Shown here piece after piece: positions 10,395 to 16,638 of a DNA stretch of 33,310 nucleotides. Each line of letters begins with the position of its first letter. Position 1 is the stretch's first letter. The notes beneath the pieces were generated by a model, which searched no databases, had not been told where the DNA came from, and saw only the letters and a list, made by a program, of their open reading frames with translations. The position numbers were made by a program, and so were the translations under genes. Source of the stretch: Thiobacillaceae bacterium (lineage in GTDB: Bacteria; Pseudomonadota; Gammaproteobacteria; Burkholderiales; Thiobacillaceae); the NCBI GenBank assembly GCA_025458005.1, contig JALOTG010000004.1, positions 1 to 33,310 on the forward strand. The letters run 5' to 3'.

Positions 10395-12449
10395 ATGAAT
10401 CCCTTGCTCGACTTTTCCGGCCTGCCCCGCTACGCCGAGGTCCAACCCGAACACGTCACTCCCGCCGTCGAGCAGCTGCTGGCGGAGAACCGCGCAATGG
10501 TGGAACGGCTCGTCGCCGACCCCGCGCCGCCGAGCTGGGACGGCTTCGCCGCCCCCTTGGAGGACGGCAACGAGCGCCTCTCCCGCGCCTGGGGCCAGGT
10601 CTCGCACCTGCACTCGGTGCTGGACAGCCCGGAGCTGCGCGAGGTCTACAACGAGAACCTGCCCAAGATCACCCAGTACTACGCCGAACTGGGCCAGCAC
10701 GCGGGGCTCTACCGCAAGTTCAAGGCCCTGGCCGCCAGCGCCGAGTACGCCAGCCTCGCGCCGGCGCGGCGCAAGATCGTGGACAACGAGCTGAGGGACT
10801 TCCGCCTCGGCGGCGCCGAGCTGCCCGAGGACAGCAAGGCGCGCTTCATGGCCATCCAGGAGGAACTGGCCAGTCTCTCCGCGAAATTCGAGGAGAACCT
10901 GCTCGACGCCACCAACGCCTGGTCGAAGCTCATCGAAGACGAGAATGATCTGGCGGGGCTGCCGGACGACGTGAAGCAGATGTTCGCCGAGAGGGCCCGG
11001 GCGGATGGCGCATCGGACGGCACTGCGGGCTGGAAGCTCAACCTGCAGGCCCCCTCCTTCCTGCCGGTCATGCAGTTCTGCGCCAACCGCGCCCTGCGCG
11101 AGGAGATGTACCGCGCCTACGTCACCCGCGCCTCCGAGTTCGGGCCGGAGAACCTGGACAACACCCCGCTCATCGGCCGGATCGTCCGGCTGCGCCAGGA
11201 GGCCGCCAGGCTGCTGGACTACCCCGATTACGCACACGTCTCCCTGGTGCCCAAGATGGCCCAGACCCCGGCCGAGGTGCTCGGCTTCCTCGACGAGCTG
11301 GCCCGCCGCGCGAAGCCCTACGCCGAGCGCGACATGGCCGAGCTGCGCGAATTCGCCGCCCGGGAGCTCGATCTCGCCGACCCGCAGGCCTGGGACCTGG
11401 CCTATGTCTCGGAAAAGCTCAGGGAGGCGCGCTACGCGTTCTCCGAGCAGGAGGTGAAGCAGTACTTCCAGGAGCCGCGCGTGCTGGCCGGCCTGTTCCG
11501 GCTCATCGAGACCCTCTACGGCCTCGCGATCCGCGAGTCCCAGGCCCCCGTCTGGCACGAGAGTGTCAAGTTCTTCGACATCCGCGACCGCGCCGGCGAA
11601 CTGGTCGGCCAGTTCTACCTCGACCTCCACGCCCGCGACAGCAAGCGCGGCGGCGCCTGGATGGACGACGCCATCACCCGGCGCAGGACACGAGGCGGCA
11701 TCCAGACCCCGGTGGCCTATCTCAACTGCAACTTCGCCCCGCCGGTGGGCGGCAGGCCGGCCCTGCTCACCCACGACGAGGTGATCACCCTGTTCCACGA
11801 GTTCGGCCACGGCCTGCACCACCTGCTCACCCGCGTCGAGGACCTCGGCGTGTCGGGCATCAACGGCGTGGAGTGGGACGCGGTGGAGCTGCCCTCCCAG
11901 TTCATGGAGAACTTCTGCTGGGAGTGGGACGTCCTGAAGCACATGACCGCCCGCGTCGACACCGGCGCGCCGCTGCCGCGCGACCTGTTCGACAAGATGC
12001 TGGCGGCGAAGAACTTCCAGGCCGGCATGCAGACCCTGCGCCAGATCGAGTTCTCCCTGTTCGACATGCACCTGCACCACGACTTCGACCCGGACGGCGG
12101 CCGGAGCGCCCTGGAACTGCTCAACGAGATCCGCAGGCAGGTGGCGGTGGTCATCCCGCCCGCCTACAACCGCTTCCCGAACAACTTCTCGCACATCTTC
12201 GCCGGCGGCTACGCGGCCGGCTACTACAGCTACAAGTGGGCGGAGGTGCTGTCGGCCGACGCCTACAGCCTGTTCGAGGAGGAGGCGCAGAGCCACGTCG
12301 GCGGCGTCCTCAACCCCGACGTCGGCCACCGCTTCTGGAGCGAGATCCTGGCCCAGGGTGGCTCACGGCCGGCCATCGAGTCGTTCAAGGCCTTCCGCGG
12401 GCGGGAACCCACCATCGATGCCCTGCTGCGGCACAATGGCATGGCTTGA
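10395..12449 (+). CDS. prlC: Oligopeptidase A, M3 family metallopeptidase
   Basis: A 684-residue cytosolic zinc peptidase that degrades short peptides, including cleaved signal peptides in E. coli. The HEXXH zinc site is HEFGH, with H468, E469 and H472, followed by GLHHLLT; the third ligand region is GINGVEWDAVELPSQFMENF. The start MNPLLDFSGLPRYAEVQPEHVTPAVEQLL and the end ALLRHNGMA match OpdA/PrlC. Length is that of the family. An AGGA at about 10384 provides a ribosome binding site. It is probably transcribed alone, divergent from the carbonic anhydrase gene and followed by a 202-bp regulatory gap. Confidence 0.96.
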   Translation: MNPLLDFSGLPRYAEVQPEHVTPAVEQLLAENRAMVERLVADPAPPSWDGFAAPLEDGNERLSRAWGQVSHLHSVLDSPELREVYNENLPKITQYYAELGQHAGLYRKFKALAASAEYASLAPARRKIVDNELRDFRLGGAELPEDSKARFMAIQEELASLSAKFEENLLDATNAWSKLIEDENDLAGLPDDVKQMFAERARADGASDGTAGWKLNLQAPSFLPVMQFCANRALREEMYRAYVTRASEFGPENLDNTPLIGRIVRLRQEAARLLDYPDYAHVSLVPKMAQTPAEVLGFLDELARRAKPYAERDMAELREFAARELDLADPQAWDLAYVSEKLREARYAFSEQEVKQYFQEPRVLAGLFRLIETLYGLAIRESQAPVWHESVKFFDIRDRAGELVGQFYLDLHARDSKRGGAWMDDAITRRRTRGGIQTPVAYLNCNFAPPVGGRPALLTHDEVITLFHEFGHGLHHLLTRVEDLGVSGINGVEWDAVELPSQFMENFCWEWDVLKHMTARVDTGAPLPRDLFDKMLAAKNFQAGMQTLRQIEFSLFDMHLHHDFDPDGGRSALELLNEIRRQVAVVIPPAYNRFPNNFSHIFAGGYAAGYYSYKWAEVLSADAYSLFEEEAQSHVGGVLNPDVGHRFWSEILAQGGSRPAIESFKAFRGREPTIDALLRHNGMA

Positions 12450-12464
12450 GGGCCAGAACAGAAT

Positions 12465-12480
12465 GTCGGACTAGTTGACA
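12465..12480 (+). promoter_or_regulatory. Upstream element 1 of the PEP-CTERM gene (GTC-N8-TGAC)
   Basis: The bases GTCGGACTAGTTGACA have the form GTC-N8-TGAC and match element 2 (12508-12523) at 12 of 16 positions. The two start 43 bp apart, about four helical turns, as expected for tandem enhancer sites of a sigma-54 activator. Binding is inferred, not shown. Confidence 0.5.
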
Positions 12481-12507
12481 GCGAAAACCACAAAACCCTG
12501 CCAAGGC

Positions 12508-12523
12508 GTCGAAACATTTGACA
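12508..12523 (+). promoter_or_regulatory. Upstream element 2 of the PEP-CTERM gene (GTC-N8-TGAC)
   Basis: GTCGAAACATTTGACA is a partial palindrome (GTC.AA...TT.GAC). Its centre is about 85 bp upstream of the -24 GG of the sigma-54 promoter, a normal enhancer distance. A third element of the same form lies upstream of the deacetylase promoter at 27075-27089. Confidence 0.5.
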
Positions 12524-12598
12524 CTACCCAATCAAGGGGCATGCACCAGAATGGAGCCCCCCCTTCGGACAAGGCTTTTCGGCGCTGCCATTGGCATT

Positions 12599-12614
12599 TG
12601 GCACAAATTTTGCT
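12599..12614 (+). promoter_or_regulatory. Sigma-54 (-24/-12) promoter of the PEP-CTERM gene
   Basis: TGGCAC at 12599-12604 and TTGC at 12610-12613 fit the sigma-54 consensus TGGCACGN4TTGC with one difference (A instead of G at the seventh base) and exact GG-to-GC spacing. The start site would be near 12625, giving a leader of about 27 bases that contains AAAGAGG before the ATG at 12652. The TGGCA motif is also present just upstream (12592-12596) as part of a TGCCATTGGCA palindrome. Published work on PEP-CTERM bacteria reports RpoN and PrsK/PrsR control of such genes, which agrees. Confidence 0.85.
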
Positions 12615-12651
12615 AGATACAGACGCCTGATAGATAAAGAGGTATCCGTCC

Positions 12652-13629
12652 ATGCAAAAGATCCTGATCCCCATCCTGGGCAGCAGCCTGCTTCTCGCCG
12701 CATCCGCCGCCCAAGCCGCTACCGCTCCCCCGATGATCAACCCATGCAACGTCCTTTATGCGCCCATGTTCCCCGGCGCCGACATCTCGGATGCCGTCGG
12801 GACATGCAACGACAATGCCGCCGTCGTCGAGGTGCTGATCAACAACAGTTCCTATTATTACGACAACTTCGAACAGAAAACCTCATCCCACGGCATTTGG
12901 ACCACCACCAGACCACTCAACCCAACTGGTGCGGTAGATGGCTGGTATGTCACTAACGATTACAACCCCCCGGGTGGTGCGGCGGCAACTTCATACACGA
13001 CCCTTGGGCATAATCATGCCCACGCGCTGAGCCTCTTCGGGGGCGAGGAATATGATGATGATGGAAACTTTGAGCGCAGCCTCAGCTTTGCAGCCAGCGC
13101 CCGCAGCCAGTGGGTCGATGTCCTGACCTTCGACGCCGACGGTACCTATTCGGCCACGTTTACCGTGGACGGTCATGCCGGGGGACTTTCTGGCGGCTTC
13201 ACTGCTTGGTTTTATGGATCGCCAGGCGCTTTTGAAAGCACACGAAACTGGAATTTCGACGTTACCGTGATGGGTCTCGACGACTCGGTGAATGCCACCT
13301 TGAGCATGGGCCAGAGTGGCGCCTATCTGACCGGATCCTTCAACGACAGCGGCACCCTCAATTTCGATTACCTGACAGGCAACCGCTACCTGATCGTCGC
13401 AAGCCTGCAAGCCGGTGTGAGTAACGGCGGCACGGTGGATTTCTACAACACCGCCAGCCTGAGCGGCGTGACGCTCACCCCGGGCACCACCATGAGTGCC
13501 CTGTCAGGTACGGACTACTTCAACCTCGGCAGCACGGTGGCCCCCCCCATCCCCGAGCCAGAAACCTACGCCCTGATGCTGGCCGGCCTCGGCCTGGTCG
13601 GCTGGGCCGCCCGCCGACGCGCGCGCTGA
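12652..13629 (+). CDS. PEP-CTERM sorting domain protein
   Basis: A 325-residue secreted protein and predicted exosortase substrate. It has a signal peptide (residues 1 to about 22, ending ASAAQA), a body rich in Asn, Ser, Gly, Tyr and Thr that looks all-beta, two early cysteines (NPCNV, GTCND), and a C-terminal tripartite signal: PEP at residues 301-303, a hydrophobic stretch (ALMLAGLGLVGWA) and a basic end (RRRAR). No known domain is recognisable in the body. Its cognate sorting enzyme, exosortase A, is encoded 8.5 kb away on the other strand. The gene has its own sigma-54 promoter and a terminator, so it is a single-gene unit. Base composition is visibly poorer in G+C than the neighbours. 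A run of eight C (13541-13548) lies immediately before the sorting signal. Confidence 0.93.
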   Translation: MQKILIPILGSSLLLAASAAQAATAPPMINPCNVLYAPMFPGADISDAVGTCNDNAAVVEVLINNSSYYYDNFEQKTSSHGIWTTTRPLNPTGAVDGWYVTNDYNPPGGAAATSYTTLGHNHAHALSLFGGEEYDDDGNFERSLSFAASARSQWVDVLTFDADGTYSATFTVDGHAGGLSGGFTAWFYGSPGAFESTRNWNFDVTVMGLDDSVNATLSMGQSGAYLTGSFNDSGTLNFDYLTGNRYLIVASLQAGVSNGGTVDFYNTASLSGVTLTPGTTMSALSGTDYFNLGSTVAPPIPEPETYALMLAGLGLVGWAARRRAR

Positions 13630-13648
13630 TAGCCCCATCGCGCAACCC

Positions 13649-13680
13649 GACGCCGGCCCCAGGCCGGCGTCTTCGTTTCC
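13649..13680 (+). terminator. Intrinsic terminator after the PEP-CTERM gene
   Basis: A perfect 10-bp stem, GACGCCGGCC (13649-13658) with GGCCGGCGTC (13662-13671), has a 3-base loop and is followed by the T-rich TTCGTTTCC. It starts 20 bp after the stop codon and separates the PEP-CTERM gene from the next gene. Confidence 0.85.
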
Positions 13681-13726
13681 GGGCCGGCTCGCTGTTAAAA
13701 TCCGCCCACTTCCCGGGAGAATCCTC

Positions 13727-14236
13727 ATGCGCATCAGGAATGGGTTGATCTTGCTGCTGTGCCTCGCCGCCCTCGGCGCCCAGGCGGGGCAGATGTACCG
13801 CTGGGTCGACGAGAAGGGCGTCGTGCAGTATTCCGACCAGCCGCCGCCGCCCAAGGCGCGCAAGGCGGAGACCATCAGGCCGCGCGGCAACGTGGTGGAG
13901 ACGGACAAGGAAAGCTACGAGATGCAGCGTGCCCGCAAGCTCAACCCGGTCAGCCTCTACGTGACCGATTGCGGCCTGCCCTGCGACCAGGCGCGCGACT
14001 TCCTGGCACAGCGCAAGATCCCCCACGCCCGCAAGAACCCGCAGTCGGTGCCCGAGGATGCCGTGGAGCTCAAGCAACTGATCGGTGCCCTGGAGGTGCC
14101 GGTGATCAAGGTCGGCGGCCGCCACGCCAAGGGCTTCGAGATGACGGCCTGGCAGGAACTGCTGGATTCCGCCGGCTACCCTCACGAAGGCTCCCCTCAG
14201 GCGGCCAGCGGCCCCATGCCCAAGAGCGGCAACTAG
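13727..14236 (+). CDS. DUF4124 protein with glutaredoxin-like C-terminal domain
   Basis: A 169-residue exported protein. A signal peptide covers about residues 1-20 (LILLLCLAALGAQA). The DUF4124 domain follows (QMYRWVDEKGVVQYSDQPP, residues 22-41), and residues about 74-150 resemble a glutaredoxin fold: VSLYVTDCGLPCDQARDFL, then EVPVIKVGGRHAKGF with the cis-Pro VPV. The candidate active site is C82-G-L-P-C86, with three residues between the cysteines instead of the two of classical CPYC, so thiol-disulfide activity is uncertain. It would act in the periplasm. It is 28 bp upstream of the asparagine-synthase-like gene, probably one operon. A TAAAAT at 13696-13701 may be a -10 element, without a clear -35. 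Confidence 0.85.
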   Translation: MRIRNGLILLLCLAALGAQAGQMYRWVDEKGVVQYSDQPPPPKARKAETIRPRGNVVETDKESYEMQRARKLNPVSLYVTDCGLPCDQARDFLAQRKIPHARKNPQSVPEDAVELKQLIGALEVPVIKVGGRHAKGFEMTAWQELLDSAGYPHEGSPQAASGPMPKSGN

Positions 14237-14264
14237 CCTCACCAAACTCAAGGAGCGTCTCCCC

Positions 14265-16082
14265 ATGCAGGGACTCATCGGATGGTTGAAACCCGCCGGC
14301 TGCGATGGCCTGGCCACGCAGCAGGCCATGCTGGCCGGCGACGACCGTCCACCACAGGCCCCCCTGCACAGCCAGATCGAGGCCATGTGGGGTCTGTCGA
14401 CTTGGGCGACCGCCGCCGACATCGCCCGGCAGGGTGATCTGGCCGCCGCCATCGTCGGACGCCCGCGCTTTCCGGGCACCGAGGCGAACGAGGCACACCC
14501 GGCGGCGACGCTGCTCGGACTGTGGCAGGCGCACGGTCCGGCGATGATGGATCAGGTGCAGGGCAGCTTCGCCCTGGCCGTGCTGGACAACCGCGCCAAC
14601 CGGGTCTTCCTGGCCATCGACCGGATGGGCATCCACAGCCTCGCCTTCGCCGCGCGCAACGACGGCATCGTGTTCGCCGACCGGGCCGACGCCGTGGCCG
14701 CCCACCCGGACGTGGGACGCCGGCTGGACGAGCAGGGCTTGTTCAACTACTTCTACTTCTACGACCTGCCCGCCCCCGGCACGGTCTTCCGCGGGGTGGA
14801 GAAGCTGCTGCCGGGCCAATGGCTGCAATGGCGCAACGGCGCGGCGGAACGGGGCTACTACTGGCACCTGGAGTACCGCGACGAGCCGCGCACGGACTTC
14901 GACGCCCAGTCGGCCCGCTTCCACCAGTTGCTGCGCGAGTGCGTCGGCCGGGCCAGGGGCGGGGACGAGGTGGCCGCCTTCCTGTCCGGCGGCACGGACA
15001 GCTCCACCGTCTGCGGCGTGCTCGCCGAGCTGCAGGGCCGGCCGGCGCGCACCTATTCGATCGGCTTCGAGGCGCAGGGCTTCGACGAGATGGAGTACGC
15101 CCGCCTGGCGGCCCGGCATTTCGGCCTGGACTCGCGCGAGTACTACCTGAAGCCGGACGACATCCTCACCGCCATCCCCATCATCGCCCGCCACTACGAC
15201 GAGCCCTTCGCCAACGAATCGGCGGTGCCCACCCTGTTCTGCGCCCGCCTGGCGGCGGCGGACGGCCACCGGGTGATGCTGGCCGGCGACGGCGGCGACG
15301 AGATCTTCGGCGGCAACGCCCGCTACGCGAAGCAGAAGGTGTTCGAGGCCTACCACGCCCTGCCCGGCTTCCTGCGCGGCGGCCTGATCGAGCCCCTGGC
15401 CGGCCTGCCCGGCCTCGCCGCCCTGCCCCCGATGCGCAAGCTGCAAAGCTACATCCGCCAGGCCAACATCCCCCTGCCGGAACGCATGGAGTCTTACAAC
15501 TACATCTACCGCCAACCCCTCGAGGCGATGTTCTCGAAGGCGCTGCTGGACGGCGTCGACGCGCACCTGCCCTCCGCCCTGCTGAAGGACGCCTACGACC
15601 GGGCGGACTCGGACTCCTACATCAACCGCATGCTGCACCTGGACCTCAAGTTCACCCTGGCCGACAACGACCTCAGGAAGGTGAACGGCATGACCGAGGC
15701 GGCCGGCATCGAGGTGCGCTACCCGCTCATCGACGACGCCATGGTGGCCTTCTCCGGCGAGGTGCCGCCAGACTGGAAGATCAGGGGCCAGTACCTGCGC
15801 TGGTTCTTCAAGACCGCGCTGAAAGGCTACCTGCCCGACCAGATCATCAACAAGAGCAAGCACGGCTTCGGCTTGCCGTTCGGCGTCTGGGCCAAGGAAC
15901 ACCCCCCCCTGCGCCAGCGAGTCGAGGACCGCCTGGCCGATTTCAAGCGGCGCGACCTGCTCAACCCCGCCTACGTCGATCAGTTGCGCCAGGAGCACAT
16001 GACCGGCCACGCCACCTATTTCGGCAAGATGATCTGGGTGATCCTGATCCTGGAGGAGTGGCTGGCGGCGCGCGGGCTTTGA
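14265..16082 (+). CDS. Asparagine synthase-like protein with degenerate glutaminase domain
   Basis: A 605-residue relative of AsnB. The synthetase half is intact: the PPi-loop motif SGGTDSS is at residues 241-247, and GDGGDEIFGG and EVRYPLIDD follow. The N-terminal glutaminase half is degenerate: the nucleophilic Cys2 is replaced by Gln (MQGLIGW), and the RGPD and NGEIYN motifs are absent. It therefore should not use glutamine through this domain; it could use ammonia or another amine, or carry out a different ATP-dependent amide-forming or adenylating step, as beta-lactam synthetase-type relatives do. The start has AAGGAG upstream. A second member at 19082-20989 keeps the Cys2. Its place beside the polysaccharide locus suggests modification of uronic or acidic sugars, which is inference. 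Confidence 0.85.
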   Translation: MQGLIGWLKPAGCDGLATQQAMLAGDDRPPQAPLHSQIEAMWGLSTWATAADIARQGDLAAAIVGRPRFPGTEANEAHPAATLLGLWQAHGPAMMDQVQGSFALAVLDNRANRVFLAIDRMGIHSLAFAARNDGIVFADRADAVAAHPDVGRRLDEQGLFNYFYFYDLPAPGTVFRGVEKLLPGQWLQWRNGAAERGYYWHLEYRDEPRTDFDAQSARFHQLLRECVGRARGGDEVAAFLSGGTDSSTVCGVLAELQGRPARTYSIGFEAQGFDEMEYARLAARHFGLDSREYYLKPDDILTAIPIIARHYDEPFANESAVPTLFCARLAAADGHRVMLAGDGGDEIFGGNARYAKQKVFEAYHALPGFLRGGLIEPLAGLPGLAALPPMRKLQSYIRQANIPLPERMESYNYIYRQPLEAMFSKALLDGVDAHLPSALLKDAYDRADSDSYINRMLHLDLKFTLADNDLRKVNGMTEAAGIEVRYPLIDDAMVAFSGEVPPDWKIRGQYLRWFFKTALKGYLPDQIINKSKHGFGLPFGVWAKEHPPLRQRVEDRLADFKRRDLLNPAYVDQLRQEHMTGHATYFGKMIWVILILEEWLAARGL

Positions 16083-16102: not shown

Positions 16103-16638
16103 AGGCCGAGCCGCAATCCGGCGCCGGCCAGATAGGCCGCCGCGACCGCGACAAGCAGCCACTTCGGCAGCGCGCAGGCGTAGATCAGGCCCACCCCGGC
16201 CGGGCTCGCGCCGTCCGCGAACAGCCGCCACAGGGCCAGGTTCTCCAGCGCGTCGAGCGGCCAGGCCAGCGGGAGCAACCAGGCCAGGACGATGCCCAGA
16301 CGCCCGGTCCGGCCGCCGGTCCGCTCGGCCAGCAAGGCGCAGCCCAGGGAGAGGAACCAGGGGTAGACGGCCATGAACAGGTAATCGAAGCCCAACCCGA
16401 ACAGGGCCCGGTCGCGCAGGGGCCCCCGCCAGGCGTCGAGGATGGCGCGCGCCGCGTCGACCTCGTGGGTGAGCTGCAGGCTGATCATCCCCCAGGGCGC
16501 CGCACGCCCCGCCTCGCCCTCGGCCAGGGGATCGTGGATGAGACCCATGGCCGCCAGCAGGGCCAGGGTCAGGACCAGCAGCAGGAGGAAGAGCCGAAGA
16601 CGGCCGGCGGGCGACAGGCGATGGTAGGGATGCCGCAT
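16087..16638 (-). CDS. Unrecognised multi-pass membrane protein
   Basis: A 183-residue protein whose family I do not recognise. Hydrophobic segments at about residues 14-34, 80-105, 112-135 and 145-172 suggest four membrane helices, with a soluble loop between the first two (about 35-78). Noteworthy is a polar cluster inside the third hydrophobic segment, DALEN, next to several prolines, and FDYLFMAVYPWF in the second. It ends in a short Arg-rich tail. It is the last gene of the minus-strand polysaccharide locus, 12 bp after a GT4 gene, and has a GA/GGGG-rich ribosome binding site before the ATG at 16638. Co-transcription suggests a part in envelope polysaccharide handling, nothing more specific. 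Confidence 0.7.
   Translation of the reverse strand: MRHPYHRLSPAGRLRLFLLLLVLTLALLAAMGLIHDPLAEGEAGRAAPWGMISLQLTHEVDAARAILDAWRGPLRDRALFGLGFDYLFMAVYPWFLSLGCALLAERTGGRTGRLGIVLAWLLPLAWPLDALENLALWRLFADGASPAGVGLIYACALPKWLLVAVAAAYLAGAGLRLGLRRGR

Follow-up and report, generated by a model that had tools for sequence, protein, structure and literature searches.

The window considered here, the whole stretch of 33,310 nt analysed from a Thiobacillaceae bacterium, contains a PEP-CTERM protein gene that is preceded by an M3-peptidase gene (10395-12449), the two being separated by a gap of 202 bp whose G+C content is 51% vs 69% for the window as a whole. The features found in and behind this gap are compiled in Table 1; the signal peptide of the PEP-CTERM protein was read from the sequence. 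Because a likely intrinsic terminator follows the gene, it is probably transcribed alone. The product of the next gene downstream (13727-14236) is a DUF4124 protein whose C-terminal part weakly matches glutaredoxin-like proteins, and the right part of the window, from about 17.9 to 33.3 kb, is occupied by an XrtA exosortase/exopolysaccharide locus.

Table 1. Features of the PEP-CTERM gene and of its upstream control region (positions in the window)
Feature	Position	Strand	Basis or remark
Far PEP-CTERM/PrsR box (candidate), TGTCGGACTAGTTGACA	12464-12480	+	score 15.7 with matrix from other genes
Near PEP-CTERM/PrsR box (candidate), CGTCGAAACATTTGACA	12507-12523	+	matrix score 15.9
75-bp spacer, DNA expected to loop	12524-12598	+	falls by its length into the phase class of 90-93 bp
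Sigma-54 -24/-12 promoter, TGGCACAAATTTTGC	12599-12613	+	TGGCAC-N5-TTGC; conserved in orthologue
Predicted transcription start	12625	+	12 bases past the -12 C; inferred from sigma-54 promoter geometry
Ribosome-binding site, AAGAGG	12637-12642	+	read from sequence
PEP-CTERM protein, 325 aa, signal peptide	12652-13629	+	PF07589, 35.4 bits; genome scan
Part of the gene coding for the sorting motif	13546-13620	+	PF07589
Likely intrinsic terminator, 10-bp stem	13649-13671	+	

A preliminary description of this DNA had placed a -24/-12 promoter and two similar upstream elements in the gap, and all three are there: the promoter scores 22.2, the runner-up in the 33-kb window reaching 12.8, while the elements, GTCGGACTAGTTGAC at 12465-12479 and GTCGAAACATTTGAC at 12508-12522, share 12 of 16 bases and have starts separated by 43 bp, the centre of the nearer one being about 85 bp away from the -24 box. 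The rarity once ascribed to them, one occurrence per 3-4 kb, was overestimated, as GTC-N9-GAC is found 20 times in the window, or about once per 1.7 kb. A box matrix was trained on 21 boxes of PEP-CTERM genes other than the window gene in the same genome (G000, an incomplete draft of 3.19 Mb in 329 contigs, about 90% complete), for which all genome-wide statements rest on pattern and family searches. Its consensus is TGTCGR-N6-TTTACA, and GTC-N8-TGAC, proposed earlier as the site, is therefore a minority variant, differing in the right half of the box, and not the consensus; in the latter role it was rejected, GTCG-N6-TTGAC being counted 98 times genome-wide vs 82 for the reversed-pattern control, and GTCG-N6-YTTAC 55 times vs 34. 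With this held-out matrix, the far and the near box outscore every other forward-strand position of the window, the third-ranked reaching 10.7, and they rank first within 400 bp upstream of the gene; a single reverse-strand match of 17.9 lies inside the M3-peptidase gene. At local composition, such sites are expected by chance at about 6e-7 (far) and 2e-6 (near) per position, and a chance origin of the boxes was rejected on the strength of the held-out matrix and of the conservation in an orthologue described below. Nevertheless, both boxes score below every training site (15.7-15.9 vs 16.5-31, same matrix), both carry TTGAC in place of the TTTAC of nearly all other boxes, and the near box lacks the leading T. 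With distances counted from the first base of a box to the T of the -24 TGG, the far box lies at 135 bp and the near box at 92 bp.

Upstream DNA could be read for 47 of the 54 PEP-CTERM matches in the genome. Enrichment of the motif in front of other PEP-CTERM genes, which had been suggested as a check, was indeed found, in that 18 of the 47 genes carry a box, nearly always with a -24/-12 promoter (both in 17 genes, a box alone in 1, a promoter alone in 1 and neither in 28; Fisher p about 1e-10). Forward sites number 23 in 18.3 kb of upstream DNA, most of these being training sites of the matrix, whereas the coding sequences of these genes, 41.6 kb in total, contain 2. Judged from these counts, about 40% of the PEP-CTERM genes appear to use the box and the sigma-54 switch, and the rest appear not to. 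A seven-gene PEP-CTERM cluster on contig C9 (L040), in which 0 of 7 genes has a box or a sigma-54 promoter, represents another class of these genes, under different control. The regulators are encoded as well: PrsR occurs once well above the model cut-off (744.7 bits), adjoining PrsK (799 bits) and EpsB_2, PrsR and PrsK being recognised by TIGR02915 and TIGR02916 above cut-off and lying in tandem on contig C292, and there is one RpoN (451 bits) as well as ihfB (143.8 bits). Two further loci, L171 (contig C212, box 906-920) and L185 (contig C121, box 16416-16430), combine a PrsR box and a -24/-12 promoter with secreted-looking products that have no PEP-CTERM motif and no NCBIfam match and share the Tat-like N-terminal stretch RR(R/S)xxKAGLAAPxVLxxLASRPVLG; they are possible new members of the PrsR regulon. 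Boxes with weaker -24/-12 sites are also seen at L184 (contig C81, box 12359-12373) and L172 (contig C213), in front of genes whose products, as judged by eye from the sequence, are a 668-aa protein and one resembling methyltransferases, and for this reason the regulon may reach beyond surface proteins.

The distance between box and promoter is far from arbitrary. In the window genome the nearest boxes start 58, 67, 69, 69, 70, 70, 79, 79, 79, 80, 81, 82, 90, 92, 92, 105 and 114 bp from the T of TGG. Searches with a box and promoter pattern of free spacing, carried out in 399 genomes of the order and separately in the genome_contigs collection, gave sharp peaks at about 60, 69, 80, 91, 101 and 113 bp, and hardly any distances in between, among the matches listed; the near box of the window belongs to the fourth peak of the six, with the far box placed another 43 bp (about four turns) upstream. 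When 182 fully read promoters were analysed, a period of about 10.8 bp fitted best (bootstrap 10.45-11.1; 10.5 by regression on turns). Collapsing similar spacers reduced the sample to 113 promoters and left R = 0.69 at a period of 10.9 bp (p about 1e-23), and removing the commonest turn still gave p about 1e-12 (n = 62), where these Rayleigh p-values assume independence beyond the collapsing; with jittered distances, R never rose above 0.34. The samples are defined by pattern and favour strong sites in one orientation. Shared ancestry was considered as the source of the phasing and discarded, the signal surviving both the collapsing and the removal of the commonest turn. The spacing between box and promoter is thus nearly always an integral number of DNA turns, with a period of about 10.5-10.9 bp. 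The few short box-to-box distances (21, 32, 32, 41 and 43 bp) are all near whole turns; a general claim of box-to-box phasing was not upheld, such pairs being too few.

A second regularity concerns the spacer, in which about a third of the PrsR-type promoters carry an IHF-like element, TAANNNNTTGATT. The reverse IHF consensus is YAANNNNTTGATW, and a spacer was called IHF-like if at least 8 of its 9 positions were matched. By this measure, the element is present in 32% of the genome_contigs promoters vs 5% of locally shuffled spacers (among the matches listed), in 42% vs 9% in the separate set from the order, and in 50% vs 4% for the promoters of this design in the window genome. Its usual start is 31-33 bp ahead of TGG; minor groups are displaced by about one turn in either direction. 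In the window spacer, the IHF scan reached 5/9 (reverse) and 6/9 (forward) at best, without a recognisable IHF site, and the window promoter lies outside the IHF-assisted sigma-54 class. Along other lines, the A+T content in the spacers of loci L228-L307 oscillates with a period of about 10-11 bp when aligned on the -24 box, as has been reported for the qrr enhancers, and since it does so about every turn, phased A+T-rich bends rather than IHF itself may be involved.

The only close orthologue in 117 genomes of the family, in G087 (76% identity), follows the same upstream gene. Its near box has the canonical form TGTCGGAAATTTTTACA with TTTACA and lies, as in the window, 92 bp from a conserved -24/-12 promoter, whereas the sequence between them has diverged (identity at 32 of 73 aligned positions), which marks the near box as the conserved element. 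In the shorter gap before the orthologue there is no far box; this box may be either an extra copy in the window lineage or one that the G087 lineage has lost.

Taken together, the window very probably holds a sigma-54 promoter that depends on PrsR and belongs to the PEP-CTERM regulon. The match to a held-out matrix, the co-occurrence of box and promoter, the orthologue, the encoded regulators, the lack of a sigma-70-type promoter in 12380-14300 and the phasing all support this reading, as do the published definition of the system and the RpoN dependence of a PEP-CTERM gene in Aquincola (both cited below); the low box scores, the TTGAC, the missing leading T of the near box, the missing far box of the orthologue, the lack of an IHF-like site and the failure of plasmid-borne prsK or prsK-prsR to restore floc formation in Aquincola speak against it. 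In the mechanism envisaged, RpoN-polymerase would be held in a closed complex on the -24/-12 promoter, and PrsK would phosphorylate the NtrC-type response regulator PrsR. PrsR would then bind the near box, aided by the far box four helical turns up, and a short loop of about 75 bp would bring its AAA+ ring to sigma-54, upon which the promoter would open, in other promoters presumably with the help of IHF. Because the loop would be only about 75 bp long, and a loop this short resists twisting, the box would have to face the right side of the helix, and whole-turn distances would be kept.

The part assigned to the far box may be questioned: it is possible, though rather unlikely, that only the near box works and that the far box is a chance match or a decaying copy. 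This would agree with its absence in G087 and with the single detectable box of most promoters, yet a site of its quality should arise by chance at the very low rate given above, and second forward boxes were found 23 times among 179 promoters vs 0.4 expected, in an orientation ratio of 23 to 4 (same to opposite) and with short gaps near whole turns. Binding of another NtrC-type activator in place of PrsR, the TTGAC marking a different specificity, appears improbable. The identical deviation in both window boxes would fit such an activator, and about nine further proteins of the genome match the PrsR model, below cut-off, over the sigma-54-interaction region; on the other side, the orthologue has a canonical TTTACA box at the same position, and TTTGAC variants occur among the second boxes of typical promoters elsewhere as well as at one other PEP-CTERM gene of the window genome. 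That the TTGACA hexamers within the boxes (12475-12480 and 12518-12523) are -35 elements of housekeeping promoters, the boxes being incidental, is extremely improbable, as the search for a sigma-70-type promoter in 12380-14300 was negative, the boxes of other genes have TTTACA, and the -24/-12 promoter is near-perfect and conserved.

Beyond the window, which contributes a further target to a regulon known since 2006, the PrsR-dependent promoters of Proteobacteria rather likely share an unreported layout: a box in whole-turn register (10.5-10.9 bp) with a common promoter reference point, an IHF-like site 31-33 bp (plus or minus one turn) upstream of the -24 box, and the -24/-12 promoter, the whole being strict enough to predict working PEP-CTERM promoters and to derive the helical repeat of DNA in loops from natural sequences. 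The spacing rule turns a loose description (mean 63, SD 11) into a precise, testable layout, and should make the prediction of PrsR targets much cleaner. The results also suggest that part of the PrsR regulon lies outside the PEP-CTERM genes, and the phased promoters constitute a large natural data set on short-loop constraints in bacterial enhancers.

In comparing with known systems, one should begin with the work of Haft et al. (2006, PMC1569441), who found 99 of 167 proteobacterial PEP-CTERM genes preceded by a 17-nt motif 1 ending in TTTACA, sometimes repeated and followed after a spacer of 62.8 ± 10.6 nt by the -24/-12 motif 2, and who named PrsR as the cognate activator. The proposal of a PrsR/RpoN target in the preliminary description, backed by the enrichment and by the PrsR, PrsK and RpoN genes, is thus a rediscovery, as box, sigma-54 motif and activator had been published there. 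The window shares with that description the repeatable 17-nt box (p about 1e-6, as a TTGACA variant), the promoter with -24 (GG) and -12 (GC), single PEP-CTERM genes, long intergenic regions and a genome with PrsK and PrsR, and its distances of 75 nt from motif 1 to motif 2 and 38 nt from motif 2 to the start codon lie within the allowed ranges (32-92 and 23-221 nt); it differs in boxes ending in TTGACA and in the length of the spacer. Spacing is given there as mean and SD only, whole-turn phasing is not mentioned, and the IHF-like element is described neither there nor in the open literature that was searched. For pepA of Aquincola tertiaricarbonis (2023, PMC9850573), again a PEP-CTERM gene with a sigma-54 promoter and a predicted enhancer upstream, dependence on RpoN1 and a mapped start with TGGCAC/CTGCTT at -24/-12 were reported; floc formation of the mutant was not restored by plasmid-borne prsK or prsK-prsR. 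RpoN dependence is experimental in Aquincola and predicted from sequence at the window. The IHF-assisted promoters of NifA and NtrC (PMC7057263) likewise combine an enhancer, often an IHF bend, and a sigma-54 promoter, but with another activator and box, and the window promoter has no IHF site. No report of PrsR box phasing was found in the open-access literature searched, and the phasing is apparently unreported for PrsR. The principle is already known, since the LuxO-dependent qrr enhancers of Vibrio (PMC4740811), with an NtrC-type activator, tandem boxes and loops of about 80-120 bp, cluster in a similar manner at intervals of about 11 bp; there, however, activator and site are different and the enhancers come from a single gene family of one genus, while the phasing of PrsR boxes extends across many proteobacterial groups.
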